From the IMG/VR virus record IMGVR_UViG_3300017770_000212, positions 1-21,427 of that record: DNA of 21,427 nt, one strand, 5' to 3'. The stretch's first letter is position 1, and each line of letters begins with the position of its first letter. The stretch comes from a virus. The notes beneath the pieces were generated by a model. The model made no database searches. It was not told the DNA's origin and was given only the letters and a program-made list of their open reading frames with translations. Shown piece by piece: positions 2 through 16,258 of the stretch. The translations under genes and the position numbers were made by a program.

Positions 2-3000
2 AAGAGACGTAATGCTGAATCTAATTTATTAGTTGATGATTTAAGAGTACAGGATCAACTTAATGTTGATGGTAATGCGTTTATTACAGGTGACTTAACA
101 GTTGATGATATTACTGCTGATGTTATTGATGCAAATATATTTAGAGATCGTGGTAATACTGGATATTATTTAGATCCTGCGACTTCAGGTACATCACTCA
201 ATGTTCGTGGTGAAATACGTAACCCATCAGTTTGGATTAACGACGGTGATAACTATAATTCATATAATGAAAACATTCGTTTATTCAATGCTCCTAACGC
301 AGTATCAGTAATTGCATTTAGTGCAACAGGAACCGCAGGTGCACCTGCTACTTCAATCTTAGGATACTCCGATAGATTAGAAACTCGTCGAGTTAATAGT
401 TGGCAACAAAGAACATATGACGGCAGATCTGAATTCGTAGGTGATATTCGTCCTACGTTAATGTATGATAGGAATGATACTAGTTATTATTTAGATCCTA
501 ATAGTAACGGTCGTGTATTACAATTAGGTATTGGTTATCGTGCAGGTGGTAAGAGATTAGATGTAACTGGTGATCACGGTAATACGGCAATAAGATTAGC
601 GCTTGCTGCTGGTAATAACGGTAATGGTACAGGAGAATTTGCATTACAAGCTTGGGTATCAGAACCAGGAAGAACATGGGAAGGTGCAGGTTTTGGTTAT
701 AACGTTGATAATAATCTTAACGCAAATACAAACCAATATTACTTAGGTAGACCTAATACAGTTGGTGGTCAGGCCTATATGAGGTTTGAACGAGATGGTC
801 ATACAGTATTCTATAATACGAATACATCAGGTACTCGTTATACTTCTATGTCAATGTTCTCAAGTAATTATATCACTGTTGGTAATTACTTACAAGCTGC
901 TAACTCGTTAAGAGCACCAATCTTCTACGATTCAAATGATACTGCTTGGTATACAGATCAAGCAAGTACTTCTCGACATAATGTTCAACAAGCAAACTTC
1001 TTCTCAAATGATGGTGCTGTTTCGGATAGTGGTCAGTTTGGTTTATACTTTGCTTCAGGTAGAAGTACAGCATATGCTATCTATAAAGAAGGTGGAGCAT
1101 GGACAAATCCATATCCTGATTTAAGAATTGCGTTCCATACAGGTATTAAGTTTGGTGCTTACCATGGTTATAATGGTATGCGATTCTATAATGACTATAA
1201 CATGGTCACTCAGGTCATGTCAGTTAATAACAGTGCTGATCCATTAGGTGCCAATAACGTATTTGTTAATAATAGTTTACAAGCAAATTCTTCGTTAAGA
1301 GCTCCAATATTTTATGATTCAAATGATACTGGATATTACTATGACCCTAATTCAACATCTAATTCTGCTGGTAGACAGAGAGGTGGTACATTCTACGGTC
1401 CTAATACATCCTGGAGTCAATACTTATATGTAGGTACAAACGGTCATGCATCTACTTCGCATTCTTCAGTTGCCGTTACAAACGGTAACTTGCATCTTGA
1501 CTCTAAGTCAGGTAATAACCTATACTTACAATGGTATGTAGGTGGTACTACATATGTAAATGGTGCAGTTCAAGCCAACATTTACTATGACAGGGACAAT
1601 ACAAGTTATTATGGTAACTTTGCTTCTACTTCATATATGAATGATTTAAGAGCAAATATATTCTACGAACGCGAAAATACAGCATATTACTTTGGTTCAA
1701 GCCAAGGTGATGCAAGAATGCGTAATGTTAGATTTAATGAAGTTAGAATTGAGAATGGCGTTACGATTCAATCAGTAAATGGTAATGGTAGAATTTATCT
1801 TGGTGGTAACTTCCATATTGATGCTCAGAACGGCAACGATTTATACCTCAACTATTATTCTGGTCGAAGAACAAGAATGTATGCTCCTGGTCAGGTTGAG
1901 GCAGCAAGATTAGATACTAACCGTATCTTCTACGCGTTCTATGATTTCAGAACTCCAATCTTCTATGACTATAACGATACAACTTATCGTGTAGATCCTA
2001 ATGGAACTTCAGTATTAAGAAACTTAACAATTAACGACAGGTTAAATGGTTACTATCCTGATAACTTTGGTAGGTTCAGATGGAGTACAGGATACTTTAA
2101 TAACGGTACTTCAACCAATAACTTTATTGGTGATCTAGGAGATAACGAAGCTTTATCACAAGGCTTTACTGCACAGAAGGTTCCATGGTCATACGCTGGT
2201 AACTCTAACGTTAATACAGGTATTACTTCAATTGAAATGGCAGGATCTGCTTTAGCAACCTGGCATGATGGTTCTTATTATACAACATTAGTTATTCGTC
2301 CTACGACCGGTGCAGGTGGTGGAGCTGTTTATATTTACAACAACCAAGGCGGTAGTTATTCTCCAGGTTGGAGACAGGTAGCAACATCTTCCACAGACTT
2401 CTATAACTATAACAGTATTCGTTCACCTATATTCTACGACACAAATAATACAGGTTTCTATACTAATCCAGCAAGTACTTCAATATTACAAGAACTTACA
2501 ATTGGTAACTATGGAACAATTTCATTAAGAACTCAATCAGGTAACGTTCGTGGTTATATTCAATCACGTGAAGAAAACGATGGCCACTTAATCATTGCCA
2601 CATCAGGTAATGAAGATATATCATTCAGAGATGGTGGTACAAGTGGATCTTGGAACCAAATCATTCGTGGTAACGGCCATGTATTAGTTGCATCAAGACA
2701 TGATTCACCTATCTATTATGATCGTAATAATACTGGTTATTATATGGATCCTGAAGGTGCTACTAACTTAGGTACATCTTTAAGAGCAACTGAAATCTAC
2801 GCAAGAAACTGGTTCAGAAACGATAATAGTGGTGAAGGTTTATATAACCAAGCAACAGCAATGCATTGGTACTCTGATAGTTCTTCAAGATTCAGATTGT
2901 ATTCTACATCAAGTACTTCACAGATCTTATTTACTACTTCAGGTAATAATGCTCGTGGTTATGTATATGCTGATAACAGTAATAATATTGGTTTCTTAAA

Positions 3001-5389
3001 TAGAAGTGGAAGTTGGTCATTACGTATGGACAACAGTGGTAACTCATTCCACACTGCTTCTGCTCGTGCTCCAATCTTCTATGACAATAATGATACTGGG
3101 TATTACTTAGATCCTAATTCAACTTCTAATGCTGCTTTAAGAATTAGAGGTGGTGCATTCCATGGACCTAACACATCTTGGGGTAGATATCTTGCTGTTG
3201 GTACAAATGGTCGATATAGTAACGAAGCTTCGGTTGCGACTACAAACGGTAACTTACACTTAGATTCTCGTTCAGGAAATAGCCTATACTTACAATGGTA
3301 TGTAGGCGGAACCACTTATGTAAACGGTTCAGTACAAGCTAATATTTACTACGATAGAGATGATACTTCCTATTACGGTAACTTTGCTTCTACTTCGTAT
3401 ATGAATGATGTAAGAGCTAACATTTTTTACGATAGAAATAATACTGCTTATTACTTTGGTTCAAGTTCAGGTGATTCAAGATTTAGAACAACAAGAGTAG
3501 GAGAAGGTTACTCTGACGGTTGGTGGAGAAACTATAACTCAGGACAAGGTTTATATAACCAAGCAACAGGCCGACATTTCTATAGCCCAGGTTCAACTTA
3601 TTGGCATCTAGACGGTGCAAGTGGTTCTGGTGGATTAATTATATACGATCGTTATCAAGGTTCTCAGGGGTCATCTACAGGACGACGTGGTTACTTATAT
3701 TACGATGGTTCAGGTTTCGGTCTCTTAAACAGTAATGGAAGTTGGGGTGTAAGACTTAACCCAGGAAATTCATATACTGAAATTTATCGTATTACATATT
3801 TGGATGATGCTCGAGCTAATATCCTATATGACAGAAACAATACTGCTTATTACTTCAACGGTGCATCAACTAACTCAACACGATTTGAAGGTGTAAGTAA
3901 CAGGACAATGGCATTTATAGGTCAGCCGGGTCATACAAGAAATAGCGGTGAATATTATAGAGCTAGACCTCGTCAAACCAGTGATACTAACTATTGGACT
4001 GGTTCATTTGGTTGGGGTCGTCAGGACATGAACGTCGTTTCAACTTGGGGTTCAGGCTTTATTGATTCTTGGAGTAATCCACCTAATCAGCCATCAGGTA
4101 CATCTCACTGGGTTGGAATGCAGGCCTTCCACTATAGAAATAGTAATACTTCTGGTTATGGTTGGCAGATGGTTGGTGGACCAATTACTAACTTACGATT
4201 CAGAAGTTCATGGGCCGGTTGGAGATCTTGGAGAACAATTCCAATATTAGATGAGAATAGTACTAACGGCGGTTCAATGTATGCCGGTCGTTATTACGAT
4301 TCAAATAATACTGGTTATTATATAGATCCAGCAAGTACTTCAGAAATGAATACTACAAACCATCGTGGAAGATTCTACTTCTCTAATTATGTTAGAGCTC
4401 GTGGTCAGGGTGGTATGATGGGAGACTACAATGATTCCGGTACCAGAGCTAAGGTAATATGGACAATTGGTGATTCATGGCCAATTGGTAATATGTATGG
4501 ATTAGCTTATGAGTATAACGGATCTTATGGTCACCACCTTGCATTAAAGAACAACGGTAGTACATATCATAGGATTTCATTCGCAAGTCAGGGTGCATCG
4601 TTATCTGGTACTTGGCAGGCTTCGTCTTCGCTAAGAGCGCCGATCTTCTATGATTCAAATAATACTGGTTATTATGCTGATCCTAATGGTACAACCGTTC
4701 TAAATGCTCTTGAGGTTCGTGGTAACCAAATAATATTACAAGGTAGTTCACCAACTATCTACATGAGAGATACGAACAACTATACCTCGATGATCCATCA
4801 GAACTCTAATGTACATTACATATTGAGTGGTAGATCTAATAATACTACAAGTTGGTCAACATACAATGGATATTGGCCTGCTACTTGGTCAATGGTAAAT
4901 AATGACTGTCAGATGGGTGGTAATTTAAGAGCAAGATATAATGTTATTGCTTATTCATCAGACATCAGATTAAAAACTAACATTAAGCCAATTGAAAATG
5001 CCCTTGAGAAATTAATGACATTAAGAGGTGTTACTTTTGATTGGACTGATGAGGCAGGTGAAGCAGGATTTACTCCTGAACAGAAATATAACGATGTTGG
5101 TGTTCTTGCTCAGGAAGTTGAAAAAGTATTACCTCAACTTGTAATGCCTGCACCGTTTGACTTGTATCAACCTAATCCTGGTTCTGAACATGACCCTGAT
5201 GGTCTAACTGAAGCAGAAAAGATGGGTCAATCAAAATCAGGTAAGAATTATAAGACGGTTGAATATGGTAGAATGGTTGCTTTAACAATTGAAGCGATTA
5301 AGGACCAACAAACCATTATAAATAAACAGCAACAAGAAATCACTGAACTTAAAGAAGTGGTCTTGAAATTGTTGGAAAAACTTTCATAA
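2..5389 (+). CDS. Giant repeat-rich tail fibre/adhesin with C-terminal S74 chaperone domain (5' end outside window)
   Basis: The frame is open from base 2, so the gene starts upstream of the window; the ATG at 461 is internal because the same repeat type continues in front of it. 1795 residues are visible. Nearly the whole length is Gly/Asn/Ser/Tyr-rich, with 15 copies of a motif like PIFYDSNNTGYYxDPxxTS at irregular spacing, as expected of a long beta-structured trimeric fibre. The last ~143 residues match the peptidase S74 / intramolecular chaperone family: SDIRLKTNIKPIENAL, then DVGVLAQEVEKVLPQLV, then YGRMVALTIEAIKDQ, ending in a coiled-coil-like helix rich in Q, E, K and L. In that family the domain trimerises the fibre and then cuts itself off. 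The gene lies where T4 keeps baseplate and short-fibre genes, so a host-recognition role is likely. The receptor is unknown. Confidence 0.88.
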   Translation, partial: KRRNAESNLLVDDLRVQDQLNVDGNAFITGDLTVDDITADVIDANIFRDRGNTGYYLDPATSGTSLNVRGEIRNPSVWINDGDNYNSYNENIRLFNAPNAVSVIAFSATGTAGAPATSILGYSDRLETRRVNSWQQRTYDGRSEFVGDIRPTLMYDRNDTSYYLDPNSNGRVLQLGIGYRAGGKRLDVTGDHGNTAIRLALAAGNNGNGTGEFALQAWVSEPGRTWEGAGFGYNVDNNLNANTNQYYLGRPNTVGGQAYMRFERDGHTVFYNTNTSGTRYTSMSMFSSNYITVGNYLQAANSLRAPIFYDSNDTAWYTDQASTSRHNVQQANFFSNDGAVSDSGQFGLYFASGRSTAYAIYKEGGAWTNPYPDLRIAFHTGIKFGAYHGYNGMRFYNDYNMVTQVMSVNNSADPLGANNVFVNNSLQANSSLRAPIFYDSNDTGYYYDPNSTSNSAGRQRGGTFYGPNTSWSQYLYVGTNGHASTSHSSVAVTNGNLHLDSKSGNNLYLQWYVGGTTYVNGAVQANIYYDRDNTSYYGNFASTSYMNDLRANIFYERENTAYYFGSSQGDARMRNVRFNEVRIENGVTIQSVNGNGRIYLGGNFHIDAQNGNDLYLNYYSGRRTRMYAPGQVEAARLDTNRIFYAFYDFRTPIFYDYNDTTYRVDPNGTSVLRNLTINDRLNGYYPDNFGRFRWSTGYFNNGTSTNNFIGDLGDNEALSQGFTAQKVPWSYAGNSNVNTGITSIEMAGSALATWHDGSYYTTLVIRPTTGAGGGAVYIYNNQGGSYSPGWRQVATSSTDFYNYNSIRSPIFYDTNNTGFYTNPASTSILQELTIGNYGTISLRTQSGNVRGYIQSREENDGHLIIATSGNEDISFRDGGTSGSWNQIIRGNGHVLVASRHDSPIYYDRNNTGYYMDPEGATNLGTSLRATEIYARNWFRNDNSGEGLYNQATAMHWYSDSSSRFRLYSTSSTSQILFTTSGNNARGYVYADNSNNIGFLNRSGSWSLRMDNSGNSFHTASARAPIFYDNNDTGYYLDPNSTSNAALRIRGGAFHGPNTSWGRYLAVGTNGRYSNEASVATTNGNLHLDSRSGNSLYLQWYVGGTTYVNGSVQANIYYDRDDTSYYGNFASTSYMNDVRANIFYDRNNTAYYFGSSSGDSRFRTTRVGEGYSDGWWRNYNSGQGLYNQATGRHFYSPGSTYWHLDGASGSGGLIIYDRYQGSQGSSTGRRGYLYYDGSGFGLLNSNGSWGVRLNPGNSYTEIYRITYLDDARANILYDRNNTAYYFNGASTNSTRFEGVSNRTMAFIGQPGHTRNSGEYYRARPRQTSDTNYWTGSFGWGRQDMNVVSTWGSGFIDSWSNPPNQPSGTSHWVGMQAFHYRNSNTSGYGWQMVGGPITNLRFRSSWAGWRSWRTIPILDENSTNGGSMYAGRYYDSNNTGYYIDPASTSEMNTTNHRGRFYFSNYVRARGQGGMMGDYNDSGTRAKVIWTIGDSWPIGNMYGLAYEYNGSYGHHLALKNNGSTYHRISFASQGASLSGTWQASSSLRAPIFYDSNNTGYYADPNGTTVLNALEVRGNQIILQGSSPTIYMRDTNNYTSMIHQNSNVHYILSGRSNNTTSWSTYNGYWPATWSMVNNDCQMGGNLRARYNVIAYSSDIRLKTNIKPIENALEKLMTLRGVTFDWTDEAGEAGFTPEQKYNDVGVLAQEVEKVLPQLVMPAPFDLYQPNPGSEHDPDGLTEAEKMGQSKSGKNYKTVEYGRMVALTIEAIKDQQTIINKQQQEITELKEVVLKLLEKLS
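1295..1723 (+). repeat. Internal fibre duplication, copy 1 (143 codons)
   Basis: This segment encodes LRAPIFYDSNDTGYYYDP through SSQGDARMR and aligns almost end to end with 3062-3487. Shared stretches include GPNTSW, VGTNG, TNGNLHLDS, LYLQWYVGGTTYVNG, VQANIYYDRD and STSYMND. The two copies differ mainly at third codon positions and in a short central segment, where copy 1 reads HASTSHSSVAV. Confidence 0.88.
3062..3487 (+). repeat. Internal fibre duplication, copy 2 (142 codons)
   Basis: This is the second copy of the segment at 1295-1723. It encodes ARAPIFYDNNDTGYYLDP through SSSGDSRFR and is one codon shorter. The main divergence is at RYSNEASVATT, the place where the other copy has its own variable stretch. 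It therefore looks like a duplicated fibre module with one exposed variable loop. Confidence 0.88.
4958..5386 (+). other. S74-type self-cleaving chaperone domain of the fibre
   Basis: The segment starts at the Ser codon of SDIRLK (Ser at 4958-4960, Lys at 4973-4975), which matches the Ser-x4-Lys dyad known from endosialidase-type intramolecular chaperones. In that family cleavage occurs just before this Ser after trimer folding. Here it would release a fragment of 143 residues. Both dyad residues are present, so self-cleavage is expected to be active, by inference. Confidence 0.8.
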
Positions 5390-5393
5390 ACTA

Positions 5394-5422
5394 TTGACAA
5401 GATCATTAGTTTTTGATATAAT
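5394..5422 (+). promoter_or_regulatory. Perfect-consensus sigma70 promoter with extended -10
   Basis: TTGACA at 5394-5399 and TATAAT at 5417-5422 are separated by exactly 17 bases. A TGA immediately before the -10 (5414-5416) gives an extended -10 (TGnTATAAT). All 12 consensus positions match. It lies 5 bases after the fibre stop codon and upstream of the small gene at 5480, so host RNA polymerase could transcribe the downstream genes without phage late factors. Confidence 0.8.
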
Positions 5423-5432
5423 AGAAATAAAT

Positions 5433-5440
5433 TATAAATA
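5433..5440 (+). promoter_or_regulatory. T4-type late promoter TATAAATA
   Basis: This is an exact match to the T4 late promoter octamer, 10 bases downstream of the sigma70 -10 element. By T4 geometry transcription would start near 5446, leaving a leader of about 34 nt before the ATG at 5480. A ribosome site (TTAGGAGA) lies about 7 nt before that ATG. Confidence 0.75.
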
Positions 5441-5479
5441 GAATTATAACATAAAAGTTATTAATTAGGAGAAAATAAA

Positions 5480-5938
5480 ATGGCACTAAGTACAGATTAT
5501 ACTTGGACATGGTCAGTATCTGGTTTGAAGAAAAGAGACCAAGTTAATGCTGAAGGCGCAACTTTAGAAGGCGCAATTGTTCAAACATATTGGAAAGTGG
5601 TCGGAGCAGACTCAGACGGCAACGAAGGTGAATTCTCAGGAGCTACACCTTTTACTGCGGTTAATGTACCAGCAGGATCATTTGCAGCATTTGACGATTT
5701 AACGGAAGATACTGTTTTGGGTTGGATTCAAAACGTTGTAAACTCAGATCAAGGATATGCGGATCATATCTCAGAAAGAGTAGCTATTCAAATCGACGAA
5801 GTCGCAATTGAAGATGCAACAATGCCTTGGGCACCTGATGATGTTACACCGACTCCTGGAGGAGACGGGGCATATGACCCAGAGAATCCAGAATCACCAG
5901 ATTCTGAGCCGGGTGAAGATCCAGCTGCACCAGAATAA
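5480..5938 (+). CDS. Small acidic phage protein of unknown function, paralogue of the next gene
   Basis: The product has 152 residues. I do not recognise a function; it looks like a small conserved protein family of marine T4-like phages. Residues 6-120 form a compact domain: YTWTWSVSGLKKRDQVN, VQTYWKVVG, FSGATPFTA, then an FDDLTEDTVLGWI helix and a final AIQIDE...MPWA. After residue ~120 comes a Pro/Glu/Asp-rich, probably disordered tail (PGGDGAYDPENPESPDSEPG) that the paralogue at 5949 lacks. There is no signal peptide or membrane segment. It has a strong ribosome site (TTAGGAGA) and is the first gene behind a tandem sigma70 plus late promoter, so it should be abundantly made. The setting suggests a virion-associated or assembly role, but this is inference. 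Confidence 0.8.
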   Translation: MALSTDYTWTWSVSGLKKRDQVNAEGATLEGAIVQTYWKVVGADSDGNEGEFSGATPFTAVNVPAGSFAAFDDLTEDTVLGWIQNVVNSDQGYADHISERVAIQIDEVAIEDATMPWAPDDVTPTPGGDGAYDPENPESPDSEPGEDPAAPE

Positions 5939-5948
5939 GGTTTAAACA

Positions 5949-6278
5949 ATGACTTATTCTTGGCAAATAGTAGACTTTGAAACCGTTGATGAAGTCAACG
6001 GTGACGGAGTGACTTTATCGGACTCTGTTGTTAGAATCCAATGGATTAGAACCGGTACAGAAGGTGATAAATATGCAAGTGTAGTTGGTTTTCATAAACT
6101 AACTGCATCCGCAGTTGCCGAGGCTGACTTTGTTTCGTTTTCTGATTTAACAGAAGCAAAGGTTATAGAATGGTTAGACGAAGGAATATCTGACGAACTA
6201 ATCAATTCTTATAATACCAAAATTCAGGAAAAAATTGAAAGACAAGGAACAACTTCAAGAAATATTCCTTGGTCTTAG
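5949..6278 (+). CDS. Small phage protein of unknown function, paralogue of the preceding gene
   Basis: The product has 109 residues and shares the fold pattern of the preceding protein: YSWQIVDFETVDEVNGDGVTL against YTWTWSVSGLKKRDQVN...GATL, then VRIQWIRTG, F.SFSDLTEAKVIEWLDE, and a C-terminal IQEKIERQ...IPWS ending. It stops where the paralogue's acidic tail begins. The ATG is 10 bases after the previous stop, and a weak AAGG overlaps that stop codon, so translation is probably coupled. The identity of the family partner or ligand cannot be read from the sequence. The pair probably arose by tandem duplication. Confidence 0.8.
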   Translation: MTYSWQIVDFETVDEVNGDGVTLSDSVVRIQWIRTGTEGDKYASVVGFHKLTASAVAEADFVSFSDLTEAKVIEWLDEGISDELINSYNTKIQEKIERQGTTSRNIPWS

Positions 6279-6281
6279 ATG

Positions 6282-6289
6282 AATAAATA
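6282..6289 (+). promoter_or_regulatory. Late promoter motif AATAAATA
   Basis: This octamer fits the relaxed NATAAATA late-promoter form seen in marine T4-like phages and lies in the 39-base gap before the sugar cassette. The predicted start is near 6295, with the ATG at 6318 and a TATGGAG ribosome site between them. It would give the cassette late expression. Confidence 0.6.
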
Positions 6290-6317
6290 AAATTTTGATA
6301 TACATTATGGAGTTCAC

Positions 6318-7361
6318 ATGCATGATTTACGTCATCACGGATTGGTGCACTATGCATTAAAACGTGGCGGAAGCATCCACCCGATTACACTACCCAAAGA
6401 GTTAACTGGCGAGACAGGGATTATGAATCCTTCCATCTTTCTACATGAAGGAAGGATTCTATTGAATGTCCGCCATGTTAATTATACTCTTTATCATTCC
6501 GAAGGAAAAAATTGGCCTCATTTTTGGGGTCCTCTTCAATACATCCACCCAGAAAACGATATCACGTTAACCACGTATAATATTATGTGCGAGTTAAATG
6601 GTGACCTAGATATTGTTCATTCTCAACGTATTGATACAAGTGATCTTGATACTAAACCTTTATGGAACTTTATTGGTCTTGAAGACGGTCGACTCTTTAA
6701 TTGGGAAGGTCGTTTATTCCTTTGTGGAGTACGTCGAGACTGTTATGATGATAAAGGCACAGGTAGAATGGAACTACAAGAAATAGAATATATTGACGGT
6801 CAATGGAAAGAAGTTGCTCGTTTTCCTATTCCTGCTCCAGGTTTAAACGATACATATTGTGAAAAGAATTGGATGCCTATTATTGATATGCCATGGCATT
6901 TTGTTAAATGGTGTAATCCTACCGAGGTCGTTAGATACGATATTAAGAAAGGTATAACTGAGACAGTTCATTTAACTGAAGAATCTGTAGGTAGAGGTGT
7001 TGATTTATTCAGAGATTTAAGAGGCGGTACTCAAGTATATCCACTTAATGATGGAAGACATATGACAATCACTCATGAGGTTGATTTAAAGAAAGATGCC
7101 TTTGGTCGTAAAGATGGTCATTATAATCATAGAGTACTTGTATGGGATAAGGATTGGAAATTAGAACATTATACAAAAGACTTTCATTTCTTAGGTACTC
7201 AAAAGGATCCTACGACAGGTCTTGAATATAATATTGAGTTTGCGACTGGTATGGTATTCTTAGATGGTAATGTAATCATTGCATTTGGTTATCAAGATAA
7301 TGGTACATTCTTATTGAAAATGCCTGAAGAATTATTCTTTGATTTTGTGAAGAGAGGTTAA
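6318..7361 (+). CDS. GH130-like beta-propeller glycoside hydrolase/phosphorylase-family protein
   Basis: The 347-residue product has the blade-by-blade signatures of the GH130-like five-bladed propeller proteins: MNPSIF (36-41), GLEDGRLF (120-127), EKNWMP (182-187), RGGTQV (235-240), THEVD (252-256), IEFATG (306-311) and FGYQDN (323-328). GH130 enzymes are mostly beta-mannoside phosphorylases or hydrolases. Many divergent members accompany glycosyltransferases, and their substrate is unknown. No signal peptide is visible, so it acts in the cytoplasm or is packaged. It is followed after 2 bases by a TPR-methyltransferase gene and then by a nucleotidyltransferase-cupin gene, forming one apparent operon. 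Catalytic competence cannot be judged. A lectin-like or glycosyltransferase-like role is an alternative. Confidence 0.68.
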   Translation: MHDLRHHGLVHYALKRGGSIHPITLPKELTGETGIMNPSIFLHEGRILLNVRHVNYTLYHSEGKNWPHFWGPLQYIHPENDITLTTYNIMCELNGDLDIVHSQRIDTSDLDTKPLWNFIGLEDGRLFNWEGRLFLCGVRRDCYDDKGTGRMELQEIEYIDGQWKEVARFPIPAPGLNDTYCEKNWMPIIDMPWHFVKWCNPTEVVRYDIKKGITETVHLTEESVGRGVDLFRDLRGGTQVYPLNDGRHMTITHEVDLKKDAFGRKDGHYNHRVLVWDKDWKLEHYTKDFHFLGTQKDPTTGLEYNIEFATGMVFLDGNVIIAFGYQDNGTFLLKMPEELFFDFVKRG

Positions 7362-8645: not shown

Positions 8646-9407
8646 ATGATAACTGTAGTTGCCACGGGCGGCTTTGACCCAATTCATTCAGGACATATTC
8701 AGTATTTAAAAGATGCGTCATTATCTGGTACTCAACTTATTGTTGGCGTTAATTCAGACGAATGGCTCATACGAAAGAAAGGTAAATACTTTATGCCTTG
8801 GGAAGAACGTGCAGCTATTGTTTCAGAACTTGCTTGTGTTGATAAAGTAATTTCTTTTGACGATTCAGATGGAAGCGCGATACATTGCTTAGAACAGGTT
8901 AAACTTTTATATCCTTCAGATACTATTATATTTGTAAATGGTGGTGATAGAACATCAGACAACATCCCTGAGATGGCAGTAGAAGGTATTGAGTTCGAGT
9001 TTGGAATTGGTGGAGAAGATAAAAGAAATTCATCAAGTTGGATATTAAAAGAATGGTCTCAACCTACGACTCAACGTAAATGGGGAACATATAAGATCTT
9101 AGATACCAATGGACAATGGAGAGTTAAAGAATTAAGTTTTGATGTTGGTCAATCATTAAGTGACCAAAGACATTTTCATAGATCTGAACATTGGCATATT
9201 GTAAGTGGTTCTGTTTTAATGGAACTTGATAGAGATGATGGAATGCCAGGATCAAAGCATACTAAAATTTATCATGCAGGTATGAGTGTCGACATTCCAA
9301 AAGAAACATGGCATAGAGCAACTAATGTTGGTAAAGAATCAGCAAAAGTAATCGAAGTATGGCTTGGAGATAAACTCGAAGAATCTGATATTGAAAGAAG
9401 AGACTGA
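8646..9407 (+). CDS. Nucleotidyltransferase fused to phosphomannose-isomerase-type cupin
   Basis: The 253-residue product is a two-domain fusion. Residues 1-140 are a cytidylyltransferase-like nucleotidyltransferase close to the heptose-1-phosphate adenylyltransferase type: GGFDPIHSGH (8-17, with the HxGH nucleotide motif), IVGVNSDEW (32-40), and FVNGGDR (96-102). The KRNSSSW segment (126-132) sits where the second nucleotide motif (IS-T/S-xxxR type) is expected. Residues 148-253 form a cupin very like type II mannose-6-phosphate isomerase: RHFHRSEHWHIVSG (175-188, with metal-ligand candidates His176, His178 and Glu181), then VDIPKETWHRATN and VIEVWLGDKLEESDI. The likely job is activation and perhaps isomerisation of a sugar phosphate for a nucleotide-sugar. 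The ATG lies 1 base after the previous stop, with AAGGA ahead of it. Confidence 0.8.
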   Translation: MITVVATGGFDPIHSGHIQYLKDASLSGTQLIVGVNSDEWLIRKKGKYFMPWEERAAIVSELACVDKVISFDDSDGSAIHCLEQVKLLYPSDTIIFVNGGDRTSDNIPEMAVEGIEFEFGIGGEDKRNSSSWILKEWSQPTTQRKWGTYKILDTNGQWRVKELSFDVGQSLSDQRHFHRSEHWHIVSGSVLMELDRDDGMPGSKHTKIYHAGMSVDIPKETWHRATNVGKESAKVIEVWLGDKLEESDIERRD

Positions 9408-9456: not shown

Positions 9457-10473
9457 ATGGCGATAAAGCTAGCTGGCACTACTGTAATTGATAATTCTGT
9501 CGTCATTGGTACACTTGATGGCAATGAGTCATTCTTTGACAATGTCAATTTTACAAACTTTCATCCTGATGTACAAACAATTCCTGCGAACGGTCAAGTA
9601 GCAATCGGAGATAGTGATTCTGGAAGCGCTTCTAACCAAGGCTATTCTGTATTTACTTTTGCCATGACTCAAAACTTACAGTTTACTTTTAATCCATCTG
9701 GATCTTTTTCTTCTGGACACTTTGGTAGTCATTTTACTATATACTTAGATCGTGGTGCTTCTGGGTATACTCCAACTTTTGCTGCTCAATTTGCGTTTAC
9801 AACAACGCCTAGTTGGTCAGGAGACAGGTATTGGACAATCAGCGGTGTAATATGGCCTGACGGCGTCGCAAGATGTACCGCCGTACCTTTTGATGCAGTT
9901 AGTACTCCATCATCCTCATTTAGTAATTTTTTAGAAGGTCTTGGCCAACAGTGGGATAACACAAACAGTTCTTATGGATCAGGTACGCCTTGGGCAGCAG
10001 CTTCTATATCCTTTAATCATGACGCGGCAAACAATAGAGTTACAGTAGTTCACGGAACTGGTAATTCAAGAGTTGGAACTACTCAATATACTACATATGC
10101 AAACTATACAGGACTTACTGGAATAACATCAGTTGAAGTTCAGTATAATCCAGGCACTCAAACCTGTTCGGGGTCCAATTGTGGATCTAACTCAGGACAA
10201 AGCTACGGGCCGTTACCAACTGACGACGGCAAGGCAGCAGGAACTTATTATAGTTGTGCTTCTTCTACCGTGTTCTTTGGTTGGACTGCCGAGGCAGATA
10301 GTAACTCAGGATCTGATAGTATTACGACAGCATCGTTTAACTCGTCTGACCCAGATCTTAGAATTAAAATTGTATGTAACGAAGGAACTTTTTATTCAAC
10401 AGCTGATGTTGGTTCATTGCAGTTATTTGTTAACTTTGGACCAAATGCAGGCTTCGGCGGAGGAGGTCTTTAA
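9457..10473 (+). CDS. Putative virion surface protein with shared 'IK.aGT.VI' head (paralogue A)
   Basis: The 338-residue product has no recognised function. Its N-terminus MAIKLAGTTVIDNS is shared with the products at 10473 and 11069 and probably anchors these proteins to a common virion site (inference). Around residues 124-150 a second shared motif occurs: PSWSGDRYWTISGVIWPDG. The rest is Ser/Thr/Gly/Asn-rich and beta-predicted, with a CSGSNC pair near 230 and a glycine-rich GFGGGGL end. That composition is typical of phage fibre or decoration proteins. There is no signal peptide or transmembrane helix. The gene has a strong CGGAGGA ribosome site behind a TATAAATA promoter. Its stop TAA overlaps the next ATG by one base, and the glycine codons GGA GGA GGT double as the next gene's ribosome site. 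Confidence 0.72.
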   Translation: MAIKLAGTTVIDNSVVIGTLDGNESFFDNVNFTNFHPDVQTIPANGQVAIGDSDSGSASNQGYSVFTFAMTQNLQFTFNPSGSFSSGHFGSHFTIYLDRGASGYTPTFAAQFAFTTTPSWSGDRYWTISGVIWPDGVARCTAVPFDAVSTPSSSFSNFLEGLGQQWDNTNSSYGSGTPWAAASISFNHDAANNRVTVVHGTGNSRVGTTQYTTYANYTGLTGITSVEVQYNPGTQTCSGSNCGSNSGQSYGPLPTDDGKAAGTYYSCASSTVFFGWTAEADSNSGSDSITTASFNSSDPDLRIKIVCNEGTFYSTADVGSLQLFVNFGPNAGFGGGGL

Positions 10474-10907
10474 TGGCAATTAAAATAACAGGAACTTCGG
10501 TAATAGATAGATCCACAAGCGCACCTTTAGCAGGGATGCGGTTTAAAAATCTTACTGGAGTAGAAGGTGAATACGATAATGTCCAACCAAAATACTCAAC
10601 ACAAACGATTGGGACAGGTAATTTAACGCCCTCCATGGCAGATGAACATCAAGAGTTTTTAACACTGAATGGTTCTAATGTAATCATACAAGGAATATCT
10701 GGTACTACAGGTGGTGATCAATTTACATATTTTGTTGACGGTTCTAACCAATTACATGATTTATCATTTGTATCTGGTGGTAGTATAACTTGGCTTTTTG
10801 AAAATGATTCAGAACCTGATTGGACAACCGCAAGATATTGGACCATCGTTATAACATCTTGGGACGCGTCTGTACATTCAGTCACAGCGACAAGTTGGGG
10901 AGCATAA
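10473..10907 (+). CDS. Short putative virion surface protein, head-domain-only paralogue B
   Basis: The 144-residue product begins MAIKITGTSVIDRS, the same head as its neighbours. It ends just after the second shared motif (PDWTTARYWTIVITSWDASV, 115-134), so it consists of little more than the common base domain without the distal part seen in paralogues A and C. It overlaps the previous stop by one base (TAATG), so translation is probably coupled. I cannot assign a function. It may be a minimal decoration protein, a remnant of a longer gene, or an assembly partner for the longer versions. No internal frameshift is obvious: the stop is followed directly by a new small gene with its own reading frame. 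Confidence 0.72.
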   Translation: MAIKITGTSVIDRSTSAPLAGMRFKNLTGVEGEYDNVQPKYSTQTIGTGNLTPSMADEHQEFLTLNGSNVIIQGISGTTGGDQFTYFVDGSNQLHDLSFVSGGSITWLFENDSEPDWTTARYWTIVITSWDASVHSVTATSWGA

Positions 10908-11068: not shown

Positions 11069-12499
11069 ATGTCGATTAAAATAGCTGGAACAGTTGTAAT
11101 TAACAATGATAGAGAATTAAAAGAAATTACTGGAAATGTAGGAAGAATTAAAACTAATAATTCTGGTTATGGAATTAGTTCAACTACTGATAATATAAAT
11201 TTTTCAACTCCGATGATGAATTGTATATTAGGTGGTGATACCACTTTTACTGAAACTTCTGTACTAGTTGGAAATTCTGCACAGATGTTATTAGACCTTA
11301 GTACAAATAATCATACACCAACGTTTTCATCAAATGTTAGTTGGGCAGACGGAACAACTCCAACATGGTCAGGTTATCAAAGATGGCACATATGTTTTAC
11401 TGTAATAGCCGCAGACGAAATTAGAGCAGTTGCTTTTGGATATACTGCTGCTAGTGGTGGTACTCCTCTGGGTTGGCCTGGAGCTACTACAATTACTGCT
11501 AGAGAAGGTGGAACTAATCTTACTGGAGTATCAGACAAGCACGTAAGTTTGAGTTATGGAGTACAAGATCCGGTCACCTCTACTTCAAGTTGTACTGTAG
11601 CTTTTTATAGAAGATCTGTTAATGGCTCAGAAATATTCTTTACTCCAACTGGTACAGGCGGAGCTACTAACGGATATTATACTCAAAGCTCAGGTGCATT
11701 TGTATCAAGAACATCTGGTCAGACAACCGAAATATGGGAAGAAAACTCAGTATCACCGGACTCAACTCGATGTGTTATTAAATCAACAAGTGGAACTATT
11801 ATATCAGATACAGGATATGTTGCGTCGGCCTCAGTTGGAACAGGTGCATCAGCGTCTGTATCCACTACTGCATCAACGACTTCTTCAATGGGAACAAACA
11901 CAAGTAATAGTACAACTACAAGACTTCTTGAATGTTGGGCTCGAAAGTCAGGATACGAAGATACTAAAGTAGCTACCTGGAGATTTGAGGCTAGTGCACA
12001 GGCATCAGGATCTGGATGTTTCCTTGGATCAGCCAACTTATATAGGTGGAATGTTGATACCAATACTGTTAACATTATGACGTTAGATTCAGCTTACAGC
12101 CAATGGTCAAGTAAAGAAGATGGTGAAGTTCATTATGTTATTGGAAAAGACGGTTTGCATAAAGAAATTACAGGGTTCAGAACTTTCCCATTACAAGATA
12201 CTTTTTACGCTATAAACGGAAGTGATGCTTTTGTTTCAAGTACTCACCCATTCTTAACAACTGACGGGTGGAAATGTCCTGGAGAAGATACTGATAGCCC
12301 AGATTATCCAGACCTCGATTTAACACAGCTTGCAGTAGGAGATATATTAAAGAAATATAATTCTGAAACAAATGAATATTATGACGAAGAAGTAACATCG
12401 ATTATTAGAGGACCAGAAAAAGTTAGAGATGTATATTCGCTTAGTGTTGGCGGAGACGATACATATATTGTTGATGGACACATTGTTCATAATAAGTAA
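11069..12499 (+). CDS. Putative virion surface protein with C-terminal Hint (intein/hedgehog-like) autoprocessing domain (paralogue C)
   Basis: The 476-residue product has three parts. The head is MSIKIAGTVVINNDRELKE, shared with the genes at 9457 and 10473; a second shared motif, PTWSGYQRWHICF, lies at 98-110. Residues ~150-316 are Ser/Thr/Gly-rich and end in LLECWARKSGYEDTKV...EASAQASGSG. From Cys317 to the C-terminus there is a Hint domain: CFLGSA (317-322) as the N-terminal nucleophile block, STHPFLTTDGW (391-401) as block B with His393, and VYSLSVGGDDTYIVDG then HIVHNK (455-476) as blocks F/G with His474-Asn475. Only Lys follows the HN pair, so there is no C-extein. By analogy with bacterial intein-like domains, self-cleavage or attachment of a nucleophile at Cys317 is expected rather than splicing. 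Confidence 0.8.
   Translation: MSIKIAGTVVINNDRELKEITGNVGRIKTNNSGYGISSTTDNINFSTPMMNCILGGDTTFTETSVLVGNSAQMLLDLSTNNHTPTFSSNVSWADGTTPTWSGYQRWHICFTVIAADEIRAVAFGYTAASGGTPLGWPGATTITAREGGTNLTGVSDKHVSLSYGVQDPVTSTSSCTVAFYRRSVNGSEIFFTPTGTGGATNGYYTQSSGAFVSRTSGQTTEIWEENSVSPDSTRCVIKSTSGTIISDTGYVASASVGTGASASVSTTASTTSSMGTNTSNSTTTRLLECWARKSGYEDTKVATWRFEASAQASGSGCFLGSANLYRWNVDTNTVNIMTLDSAYSQWSSKEDGEVHYVIGKDGLHKEITGFRTFPLQDTFYAINGSDAFVSSTHPFLTTDGWKCPGEDTDSPDYPDLDLTQLAVGDILKKYNSETNEYYDEEVTSIIRGPEKVRDVYSLSVGGDDTYIVDGHIVHNK
12017..12496 (+). other. Hint domain without C-extein or endonuclease
   Basis: This is the coding segment for Cys317 (TGT at 12017-12019) to Lys476. It has the three conserved Hint positions: a leading Cys, a block-B His within THPF, and the terminal His-Asn. 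At ~160 residues it is the size of a mini-intein or intein-like domain, with no room for a homing endonuclease and no sign of one. The block-B Thr is Ser here (SSTH instead of TxxH). Confidence 0.78.
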
Positions 12500-12511: not shown

Positions 12512-13465
12512 ATGACAAGTCATACATTTAATACCGTAGCAGGAACAACCGCAACTGGTGGAACTGGCGGTGGCGCGGCAGGTGTTACTAGTAATGTAGT
12601 AACAGACCTCGTAGCAGATCAAAGTGAAGGTAGTGGGTTTGTTCATAACCAAGTTTGTAATGGTGGCAGCTCAGCCAACGCTGACACAATAATGGGTTTA
12701 CAATATACAGCGTCAAGTTCGACGTTACGTTTAATAGCCACTGATGATAGTTTAGCTACAGGAACTGGCAGTGGTGCAACACGTTTTGACTATGCATATG
12801 CAAGAGGACCTAATTCTACAAGTAACGCGCAAACAACATATAACGACCAGACTGGTGGAAGTAATGGACCACAAGGTACGTCGGGTTCTTACGAATGGCT
12901 AGAAACACAATATACTGATGGGGAAGGATTTACAGAAACAAGAATAGACGTTAGATGGAATAGTGTATTCGTATTTCAAGCTATGATATATGTCGGCCAA
13001 GGTTCAGTTACTGGTAGTGACGGATTAACATATACAAAAGGTTCTCAGTTTAACACATCTGGATCTGAAACGCGCTACCAACTAACACAATCGGACCCAG
13101 GAAAATCTATGTACGTGAATCAAACGACAAGTGGGACTATTACAGGTATAAGAATGAAAGTTACTGTTAATAACGTTAATAATGCGTCCGGAAATATTGC
13201 ACCTCTACGAAGCTTAACTAATACTGCTGGCGGTAATCATTCTCTTACAGCAACCGGAACTTTTGATAGTGGATGGTTAACAAGTAATATGTCTACTGGA
13301 TTAAATATAGTAGTAAGGCATCTGCCAAATATTGCCGGAAGTTCGTCTGGTAATTGTACTTACCTATTCCAAGCAAGTGTAGAATTATGGGCAAGAGCAT
13401 CTGGTGTAAGTGATACGAAAGTAAAAGATTTCTTAATGAGCGCGAGCACAATTATAGCTTTATAA
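12512..13465 (+). CDS. Putative virion surface protein ending like the Hint-protein's N-terminal part
   Basis: The 317-residue product has no recognised function. The N-terminus lacks the 'IK.aGT.VI' head and is Gly/Thr/Ala-rich (TATGGTGGGAAG). The middle is Ser/Thr/Asn-rich and beta-predicted (DVRWNSVFVFQAMIYVGQG, TGIRMKVTVNNVNN), as in many phage fibre or capsid-decoration proteins. The C-terminus ELWARASGVSDTKVKDFLMS aligns with ECWARKSGYEDTKV in the protein before it, and this protein stops where that one enters its Hint domain. An AAAGGAAA ribosome site lies 12 bases after the previous stop. Late, cotranscribed expression with the upstream surface genes is likely. It is the last gene before the gp13-gp20 block. 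Confidence 0.7.
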   Translation: MTSHTFNTVAGTTATGGTGGGAAGVTSNVVTDLVADQSEGSGFVHNQVCNGGSSANADTIMGLQYTASSSTLRLIATDDSLATGTGSGATRFDYAYARGPNSTSNAQTTYNDQTGGSNGPQGTSGSYEWLETQYTDGEGFTETRIDVRWNSVFVFQAMIYVGQGSVTGSDGLTYTKGSQFNTSGSETRYQLTQSDPGKSMYVNQTTSGTITGIRMKVTVNNVNNASGNIAPLRSLTNTAGGNHSLTATGTFDSGWLTSNMSTGLNIVVRHLPNIAGSSSGNCTYLFQASVELWARASGVSDTKVKDFLMSASTIIAL

Positions 13466-13502: not shown

Positions 13503-14246
13503 ATGGCACAACCAACAACAAGAGAACAATTCAAAAGCTGGGTACTCCGTAAGCTAGGTGCTCCTGTGATTGATATTAATGTGTCGGACGAACAGATTGA
13601 TGACCGTCTTGATGAAGCTATAGATTTCTGGAGAGATTATCATTATAACGGAAGTCAACTTGTTTATATGAAACATCAGATTACTCAAGAGAATAAAGAT
13701 AACGGTTATATAGAACTACCTACAACAATACTTGGTATTTCAGGTATCTTTAATATGCAATCAAGTATTTCTACAGGTGGTGGAATCTTTAATGTTCAGT
13801 ATCAATTTGTTTTAAATAATCTTGAAGATATTACTGGATATAACATTACAAATTATTATATGTCAATGCAGCATTTAGAATTCTTACAAGAAATGCTTGT
13901 TGGCAAACCAATGATTCGTTACAATAAACACATAAACAGATTACATATAGATTCAGGGGTTGACTCAATGCCTGTTGGTGAATACATTATTATAGAAGCA
14001 TATGATGTAATTGATGCAGATACTTATTCTGATGTATGGGGTGATCGTTGGTTACAAAACTATGCCGCTGCTTTAATTAAAGAACAGTGGGGATCAAACC
14101 TAACTAAGTTTACAGGTATGCAACTTGTAGGCGGTGTATCATTCAACGGAGAACAAATACTATCTGATGCCAAAGAAGAAAGGCGCTTAATGGAAGAAGA
14201 AGCCATTGAGAATTTACAACCTCTTCAGTATAATTATATCGGATAA
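13503..14246 (+). CDS. gp13: gp13-like neck (head completion) protein
   Basis: The 247-residue product starts AQPTTREQFKSWVLRKLGAPVIDINV, followed by QIDDRLDEAIDFWRDYH. This N-terminus is characteristic of the gp13 neck proteins of marine T4-like phages. T4 gp13 is longer (309 residues), and short versions are usual in marine relatives. With gp14 it forms the neck that closes the filled head and joins it to the tail. The next gene begins 3 bases after the stop, and the order 13-14-15 is the same as in T4. The ribosome site is weak (AGAG), so leader context or a late promoter 26 bases upstream must provide expression. No anomalies are visible in the frame. Confidence 0.88.
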   Translation: MAQPTTREQFKSWVLRKLGAPVIDINVSDEQIDDRLDEAIDFWRDYHYNGSQLVYMKHQITQENKDNGYIELPTTILGISGIFNMQSSISTGGGIFNVQYQFVLNNLEDITGYNITNYYMSMQHLEFLQEMLVGKPMIRYNKHINRLHIDSGVDSMPVGEYIIIEAYDVIDADTYSDVWGDRWLQNYAAALIKEQWGSNLTKFTGMQLVGGVSFNGEQILSDAKEERRLMEEEAIENLQPLQYNYIG

Positions 14247-15811: not shown

Positions 15812-16258
15812 ATGAGAATTGGATTTACATGTAGTAGCTTTGACTTGCTCCACTCCGGACATGTTCAAATGTTGAGAGAAGCAAAATCTCAATGCAATTA
15901 TTTAATGGTAGGATTACAAATGAATCCTGCACTTGACCGACCTAAAGAAAAGAATCATCCAATCCAAAGTATTGTTGAAAGATATACTCAATTAAAAGCA
16001 GTGAGTTATGTTGATGAAATCATTCCTTATAACACTGAACAAGACCTTATAGACATTTTGGAATTATATCATATTGATGTTCGTATCTTAGGTGATGAAT
16101 ATAGAGATAAAGAATTTACAGGTAAAGATATTTGCCGAAAAAGAGATATTGAATTGTTCTTTAATAAAAGAGATCATAGGTTCAGTACATCGGGTTTACG
16201 AAAGGCTTGTGCTTGGGTAAACAAGGACGGTGATTGGAAGATGACCGCTGAGGGATAA
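15812..16258 (+). CDS. TagD-like (glycerol-3-phosphate) cytidylyltransferase-family protein
   Basis: The 148-residue product is a single-domain nucleotidyltransferase. Features are FTCSSFDLLHSGH (5-17) with the HxGH motif, IQSIVERYTQLKAVSYVDEI (51-70), IDVRILGDEY (88-97), and RFSTSGLR (123-130), which stands for the ISTTxxR-type second nucleotide motif. This pattern and length suit the glycerol-3-phosphate or ethanolamine-phosphate cytidylyltransferase group (Bacillus TagD is 129 residues). Such enzymes make CDP-activated alcohols for polymer or lipid head groups; the substrate here is not decidable from sequence. It sits between gp15 and gp16, an accessory insertion in the morphogenesis block. 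The C-terminus, CAWVNKDGDWKMTAEG, extends beyond the core fold. The ribosome site is AAGGAA. Confidence 0.82.
   Translation: MRIGFTCSSFDLLHSGHVQMLREAKSQCNYLMVGLQMNPALDRPKEKNHPIQSIVERYTQLKAVSYVDEIIPYNTEQDLIDILELYHIDVRILGDEYRDKEFTGKDICRKRDIELFFNKRDHRFSTSGLRKACAWVNKDGDWKMTAEG

Follow-up and report, generated by a model that had tools for sequence, protein, structure and literature searches.

Phage Hint domains that nearly always carry a basic +1 residue form a widespread group and are often C-terminal on tail proteins of different kinds

Inteins in general carry Cys, Ser or Thr at the +1 position. A-type BILs are defined by a His-Asn end followed by a non-nucleophilic +1 residue (PMC4031507, PMC7765530), and they are described as occurring in variable, non-conserved proteins (PMC7765530). 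For A-type BILs, which lack a +1 nucleophile, PMC4031507 describes a thioester at Cys1 and cyclisation of the Asn, after which ligation is proposed to occur when the amine set free attacks the thioester; products of cleavage are reported there to predominate. BIL2 of Tetrahymena BUBL1 (PDB 6y75 and 6tmm) is another intein-like domain, with ubiquitin-like flanking domains and an acceptor Lys in the next domain according to PMC8616854; unlike the domain described here, its construct has Met at +1.

We analyzed a Hint domain encoded in a 21,427-nucleotide stretch of viral DNA (IMG/VR record IMGVR_UViG_3300017770_000212; hereafter, the window). The domain resembles A-type BILs in its Cys1, its T/S-x-x-H motif, its C-terminal His-Asn and the absence of Cys, Ser or Thr at +1. 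In contrast to A-type BILs, however, the viral Hints of its group have a nearly fixed Lys (or Arg) at +1, are terminal in 41 of the 140 cases listed and in many cases stand on tail proteins. B-type BILs are without the intein-like block G, whereas the window domain has the HN pair. As in hedgehog, whose C-terminal autoprocessing domain (1at0) acts on the preceding part of the protein, the Hint is C-terminal; unlike hedgehog, the window protein keeps HN and ends at Lys476 without a sterol-recognition region. Hint-annotated proteins of uncultured phages are already present in databases, and searches of open-licence PMC papers gave no recognisable paper on a Lys-ended Hint on phage tails.

The window protein and its Hint domain

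PHROGs gene names and gene order place the window in a T4-like phage with a contractile tail. Its first ORF (461-5389) matches tail-fibre families (PHROGs) and has an S74 domain at its end (Pfam). From position 13503 onwards, PHROGs names head-tail adaptor Ad2, head closure Hc2, sheath stabiliser, small and large terminase, sheath and tube; the T4 counterparts of the Ad2-to-tube genes are presumably gp13 to gp19. The Hint-bearing ORF, which has the length and position stated by the initial annotation, is located between the fibre and neck genes (Table 1). In marine T4-like phages, the stretch from the baseplate gene VrlC to gp14 is named the host recognition cluster in PMC7029224, with tail fibres and glycosyltransferases; by gene order, the fibre-to-neck stretch of the window would be its match. 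Gene order and weak fold matches (below) also point to a virion location of the Hint-bearing protein.

Two tandem DUF7936 proteins (5480-5938 and 5949-6278) lie 3' of the S74 tail fibre. Two heptose adenylyltransferase-like proteins (8646-9407 and 15812-16258) are encoded in the tail gene region, and the second half of the former is cysteine-dioxygenase-like. Rfam gave nothing at gathering scores over the window, and promoter-like and terminator-like sites in the window showed no excess over shuffles.

Table 1. Features of the Hint-bearing protein and its neighbours (positions in the window)
Feature	Position	Strand	Basis
CDS of Hint-bearing protein, 476 aa	11069..12499	+	ORF and translation
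N-terminal host part (N-extein), residues 1-316: short common head, then beta-rich domains	11069..12016	+	AlphaFold2, pLDDT 71
Shared head motif MSIKIAGTVVINN, also at the start of ORFs 9457 and 10473	11069..11107	+	sequence comparison
Host-part end RKSGYEDTKVATWRFEASAQASGSG; 25 residues from motif Arg to the residue before Cys317	11942..12016	+	motif count
Hint domain with +1 Lys, residues 317-476	12017..12496	+	Pfam, profile, AlphaFold2, fold alignment
Cys317, predicted thioester former	12017..12019	+	Cys1 conserved in viral domains
His393, block B (S/T-x-x-H)	12245..12247	+	conserved in viral domains
His474-Asn475-Lys476 (block G and the +1 Lys), then stop TAA	12488..12496	+	translation, family comparison
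Neighbour protein, same head	9457..10473	+	head motif
Short neighbour protein, same head	10473..10907	+	head motif, BLASTP
Hint-less neighbour with common C-terminal motif	12512..13465	+	last 23 residues (13394-13462) correspond to 11942-12016

Residues 317-476 had been annotated as a C-terminal Hint, and this assignment was confirmed by the residues present and by profile matching. The domain starts with CFLGSA, contains SSTHPFLTTDGW with His393 and ends in HIVHNK directly before the stop codon. The +1 residue is thus Lys476 in place of the Cys, Ser or Thr of an intein, and there is no C-terminal extein apart from this single residue, as had been claimed. Pfam Intein_splicing matched the domain alone with E = 3e-4 (21.1 bits, below the Pfam cut-off of 35.8), and NCBIfam intein_Cterm gave 12.7 bits, also below its cut-off. 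Pfam Hint_2 (PF13403) had no match in the window, and the window protein had no family worth naming in PHROGs and NCBIfam. A profile of 47 domains, the window's own included, matched Tetrahymena BIL2 with E = 4.5e-14 and the Clostridium thermocellum BIL (PDB 2lwy), which we take to be A-type, with 1.9e-13; inteins followed close behind. Among the 47 members, Pfam matches at E 0.001 were Hom_end_hint (35), Vint (34), AXH (25) and Intein_splicing (21). The 25 AXH (ataxin) matches were taken as cross-matches between similar beta folds.

A horseshoe Hint fold had been set beforehand as a condition for this reading, and such a fold was predicted. The AlphaFold2 model, built on the same 47 domains, had a pLDDT of 92 and a pTM of 0.87, and VIA-align placed it on BIL2 (6y75_B) with Z 17.8 and 2.2 A over 139 residues. 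The NrdJ-1 intein scored 17.1, further inteins 16.7 or less, the Clostridium BIL 15.2 and hedgehog (1at0) 14.5. Z was at least 8 for 84 of the 997 PDB chains compared, and the 50 matches listed were inteins, BILs and hedgehog. The Hint fold of the modelled residues 317-476 is secure. Since scores within Z 1 of each other count as tied, and BIL2 and NrdJ-1 are tied in this way, the exact nearest relative is not secure. The aligned range of 6y75_B extends to residue 144, one beyond the mutated Asn143; a Lys at +1 in BIL2 was considered and rejected because this residue is Met in the construct.

The host part, residues 1-316, is 27-81% identical across 11 relatives. The initial annotation had the protein sharing its head with two neighbours. 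This sharing is genuine but brief: a motif, M[AS]IK[IL][AT]GTxVI[DN], opens ORFs 9457, 10473 and 11069, and BLASTP of the whole host part was weak or nil (E 9.3 against ORF 9457 and 0.009 against ORF 10473). The AlphaFold2 model of the host part was modest. For residues 31-126, the top three fold matches were a phage capsid spike (Z 7.1), a phage baseplate/tail-interface protein (6.4) and T4 gp9 (5.6). The comparison of the host part gave weak matches only, with no Z of 8 or more and no clear match to any fold, ubiquitin-like or other.

Relatives of the domain and the +1 residue

Scanning with the window Hint returned 13 loci. In two of them, L012 (a fragment) and L013, the Hint is mounted on a quite different protein; the L013 host matches Phage-tail_3 and is here called J-like. 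Wider scans covered the best 80 of 226, the best 80 of 360 and the best 80 of 89 relatives, the figures of the 360-relative scan holding among the matches listed. Distinct domain sequences were counted, with near-copies counted apart; some loci are one contig under two ids.

Among the matches listed in the wider scans, there were 140 distinct complete viral domains. At +1 they carry Lys (126), Arg (10), Ala (2), Gly (1) or Cys (1), and neither Ser nor Thr occurs there among the 140. Cys1, block-B His and HN are present in 140 of 140, HN having been a requirement for collection as a complete domain. Among the rejected matches listed that start by position 3 and reach past 100, there was no complete viral domain without HN. 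Since one scan pattern contained HNK, the fairer set is that of 116 viral domains listed from the two scans without this pattern (L002 and L093 left out), with 102 Lys, 10 Arg, 2 Ala, 1 Gly and 1 Cys at +1; 40 of these domains are terminal. In the set found only via HPxLTxxGWK, a pattern without Cys1, Cys1 was present in 57 of 57 domains. Chance was rejected as the source of HNK, because domains collected with patterns that left out block G show it too.

In 41 of the 140 viral domains listed, the +1 residue is the last one of the protein, and it is Lys in all 41. Among the listed viral domains with a visible stop, none continues for just 1-10 residues beyond the +1 position. A nucleotide-level cause of the Lys-stop was rejected: in the 42 terminal forms (L190 included), the Lys codon is AAG in 23 and AAA in 19, and the stop codon is TAA in 30, TAG in 7 and TGA in 5. 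The residue at -1 is Gly in 18 of the 41 terminal forms listed and Asp in 8; therefore, the junction is not uniform. The view that the Lys is a mere leftover does not agree with these results, since the Lys is almost fixed at C-termini and at internal positions alike.

A quick tree, calculated for 91 domains from few columns, grouped 23 of the 25 terminal forms together with SH-aLRT 94, below the tool's mark of 95. Many independent origins of the terminal form are not supported, as two changes suffice on this tree; the hosts of L083 and L267 lie outside the main terminal group. The length of 27 terminal domains listed is 138-160 aa, which is too short for a homing endonuclease. A +1 control in other HN-type Hints gave no match within three genomes.

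Tandem Hints were detected in L245, L053, L142, L127 and L146. Ten of their junctions have one residue, Lys in 8 and Arg in 2, between the Asn of one Hint and the Cys1 of the next. In L043, L044, L128, L135, L144 and others, a complete Hint precedes a second copy that matches over only the first ~30 residues, with other sequence after it. L211 encodes two different Hint-ended proteins near each other in one cassette (3570-4664 and 5077-6477).

On bacterial genome contigs, 20 complete domains had Lys (12), Thr (4), Val (2), Ser (1) or Ala (1) at +1. The Lys cases include eight Aeromonas proteins and, from a Pirellulales bin, L190, whose type is that of the window phage; L190 carries the window's phage cassette and is probably a phage contig inside a bacterial bin. 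The Aeromonas proteins (L178, L181-L187) are chromosomal and consist of a short N-terminus, Hint, HNK and a Gly/Asp-rich tail, so Lys at +1 occurs outside phages too.

Neither the window Hint nor the window host part had a tblastn match in 50,697 phage records. Other family members matched GenBank phage records annotated mostly as helicase, RecA-like and portal, with terminase also named; by annotation, the hosts of these Hints are not tail proteins.

Host proteins and the start of the Hint

BLASTP (E 1e-4, 50 residues) left the 42 terminal host parts (L190 included) in 12 unlinked groups; the group of L014 and that of L012, a short fragment, may belong together. Family searches identify several of the 12 groups as tail proteins. 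Of 19 host parts searched in PHROGs, 15 of them terminal and 4 internal, 10 were without a family at E 0.01; thus, virion-protein status does not follow for all hosts. The families named were phrog_2048, whose GenBank relatives include "minor tail protein L" (gpL-like), phrog_32 (tail assembly protein) for the gpI-type host of L094, phrog_358 / DUF4815, and a virion structural protein family for that of L066. In L100, the gene order is gpL (Phage_tail_L), a JAB and NlpC/P60 protein (gpK-like), a gpI-like protein with the Hint and a gene without a Pfam match; the order in L094 is similar. According to PMC1779556, lambda gpI is ubiquitin-like, may be a substrate of the gpK JAB domain and is missing from the mature tail. 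Hint-Lys modules apparently occur both in a contractile-tail phage (the window) and, to judge from the gpL and gpI hosts, in non-contractile ones. The group as a whole is a widespread phage Hint group with a nearly fixed basic +1 residue, many members of which stand at the ends of different tail proteins.

In L255 and L257, HNK is followed directly by SSDIRLKKNIKF or SSDVRLKKNIKF, which reads as an S74 chaperone end; upstream of the Hint, L257 has tail-fibre family matches. The protein PJWF_00028 of Achromobacter phage JWF also has a Hint near its end, and its annotation gives a match to the T4 gp36 tail fibre; unlike the window domain, this Hint has no recognisable HN end in translation. Its gene (L102, 4077-5528) is two genes before one annotated as anaerobic sulfatase-maturating enzyme.

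The distance from the motif Arg to Cys1 is 24-25 residues in 12 window-type Hint proteins. Hint-less proteins encoded in these loci end 23 residues on from this Arg in six cases, one of which is the window neighbour at 12512-13465, and 25 and 26 residues on in the others. Three further Hint-less types (L289, L292, L297) stop after 24-25 residues. Except for these three types, the counts are from 15 hand-picked loci, an unrelated L211 ORF (30 residues, a false pattern match) having been dropped. As Cys1 falls where the Hint-less paralogues end, removal of the Hint would restore the ordinary end; thus, N-terminal release is the simplest outcome. The paralogues end without Lys. For gpL and for gpI hosts, two Hint-less homologues each end roughly 15-40 residues short of the Cys1 position; a Gly/Ser-rich linker is added in the Hint forms.

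A single-protein scan with the window protein gave 9 loci, all on contigs already bearing the Hint. A profile scan of the window-type protein gave 22 loci, among which L289-L293 and L297 had no Hint among the ORFs searched. These are not clean empty sites, because their syntenic head proteins, judged by eye, also end roughly 60 residues earlier. Since such syntenic Hint-less cassettes exist, the module is dispensable.

Processing models

We favour, with moderate confidence, an A-type-BIL-like module at the natural C-terminus of a probable phage surface (host-recognition) protein, acting by thioester formation, N-terminal cleavage and cyclisation of Asn475. The window Hint domain probably cuts itself off. 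After folding, Cys317 would attack the carbonyl of Gly316 to form a thioester, cyclisation of Asn475 would free Lys476, and resolution of the thioester would give a mature protein of residues 1-316, of ordinary length, and a shed Hint domain. When the A-type BIL scheme is applied to the window protein, the freed piece is a single lysine. The +1 Lys would be part of the module, either tuning the active site or serving as the amine that takes the acyl group, and Lys476 may be the amine that resolves the thioester. Here we infer the cleavage itself, its timing, the resolving agent and the presence of the host protein in the virion. If the domain is active, phages would use an intein-like system as a finishing tool for several kinds of tail protein; they may thus finish their tails with one spare-part "protein cutter or gluer".

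Cleavage or transfer, rather than splicing, had been proposed at the outset. This proposal is supported in part: the Hint start agrees with the Hint-less stops. The near-invariance of the Lys and the presence of related modules on several other tail proteins had gone unnoticed. Hedgehog-type domains do without the Asn and the +1 residue. Simple release is therefore an incomplete account, because Asn and Lys are kept without need and because tandem junctions consist of one residue. These tandem Lys/Arg junctions and the kept Asn and Lys make the moving unit look like "Hint plus Lys", and since the one-residue "extein" recurs in tandem Hints, ligation to that Lys may occur. This raises the question why a self-processing domain should retain its Asn and one Lys as the last residues of a protein.

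Two alternatives overlap with the favoured release by an A-type-BIL-like module, so that the chances given to them are not exclusive of it or of each other. In the one, the module is a ligase: the amine of Lys476 or of a partner Lys attacks the Cys317 thioester, Lys476 by its alpha-amine after Asn cyclisation or by its epsilon-amine before, and the product is an added Lys or a covalent link. A +1 Lys that is nearly fixed at protein ends and inside proteins alike, written with both codons before all three stops, would be expected of such a ligase, as would the exact ending at Lys (41 of 41 listed, none with 1-10 extra residues) and the ten tandem junctions whose sole residue is Lys (8) or Arg (2). 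BIL2, the best profile and fold match, is reported to form an isopeptide bond to Lys; its acceptor, however, is in the following domain (PMC8616854), and its crystal construct has Met at +1. As Arg, a poor amine nucleophile, replaces Lys in 10 cases and the Hint-less paralogues end without Lys, we regard Lys transfer as unlikely. The broader proposal of a "Hint-Lys" ligase family, whose last-residue Lys is the acyl acceptor and which finishes tail or adhesin proteins by an added Lys or by an amide or isopeptide link to a virion or host partner, is quite unlikely. If it were true, tandem Hint-Lys-Hint-Lys arrays would attach multiple lysines or create a branched linkage, and the gpI-type case would place a ligase on a ubiquitin-like assembly protein next to gpK with its JAB isopeptidase-type domain; a Lys-accepting Hint would be another ATP-free route to protein ligation. 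In the other alternative, the Hint acts like S74 as a timed chaperone that aids folding of the beta-rich tip or prevents sticking and is shed at assembly, with the Lys as a structural cap. This fits the natural C-terminal position, the Hint directly before an S74-like stretch in L255 and L257 and the S74 end of window ORF 461-5389. However, we know of no Hint that acts as a chaperone, and gpL- and gpI-like proteins of cultured phages exist without a Hint; this reading is doubtful.

The remaining two alternatives give the domain little or nothing to do. A mobile passenger, derived from a mini-intein and able to sit on any tail protein, would account for the patchy presence, with Hint-less cassettes L289-L293 and L297, and for tandem and truncated copies. 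We consider it very unlikely, because catalytic residues and the +1 Lys are kept across domains of less than 30% identity, the domain is under purifying selection, and the 27 terminal domains measured are too short for a homing endonuclease. A dead structural domain, to which the 21 bits of the window domain against the Pfam intein model would correspond, is scarcely credible, since every active-site residue is present and under selection.

Purifying selection on the Hint domain was observed in 15 pairs from six sequences. The dN/dS of the Hint was 0.14-0.34, and that of the host part in the same pairs was 0.24-0.55, except for a near-identical pair with 1.35. In 11 of the 15 pairs the Hint had the lower value of the two, and in 4 it did not; synonymous change was high in the L010 pairs of this comparison. 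The Hint of L001-L004 is 100% identical, and those of the other window-type relatives are 65-88% identical.
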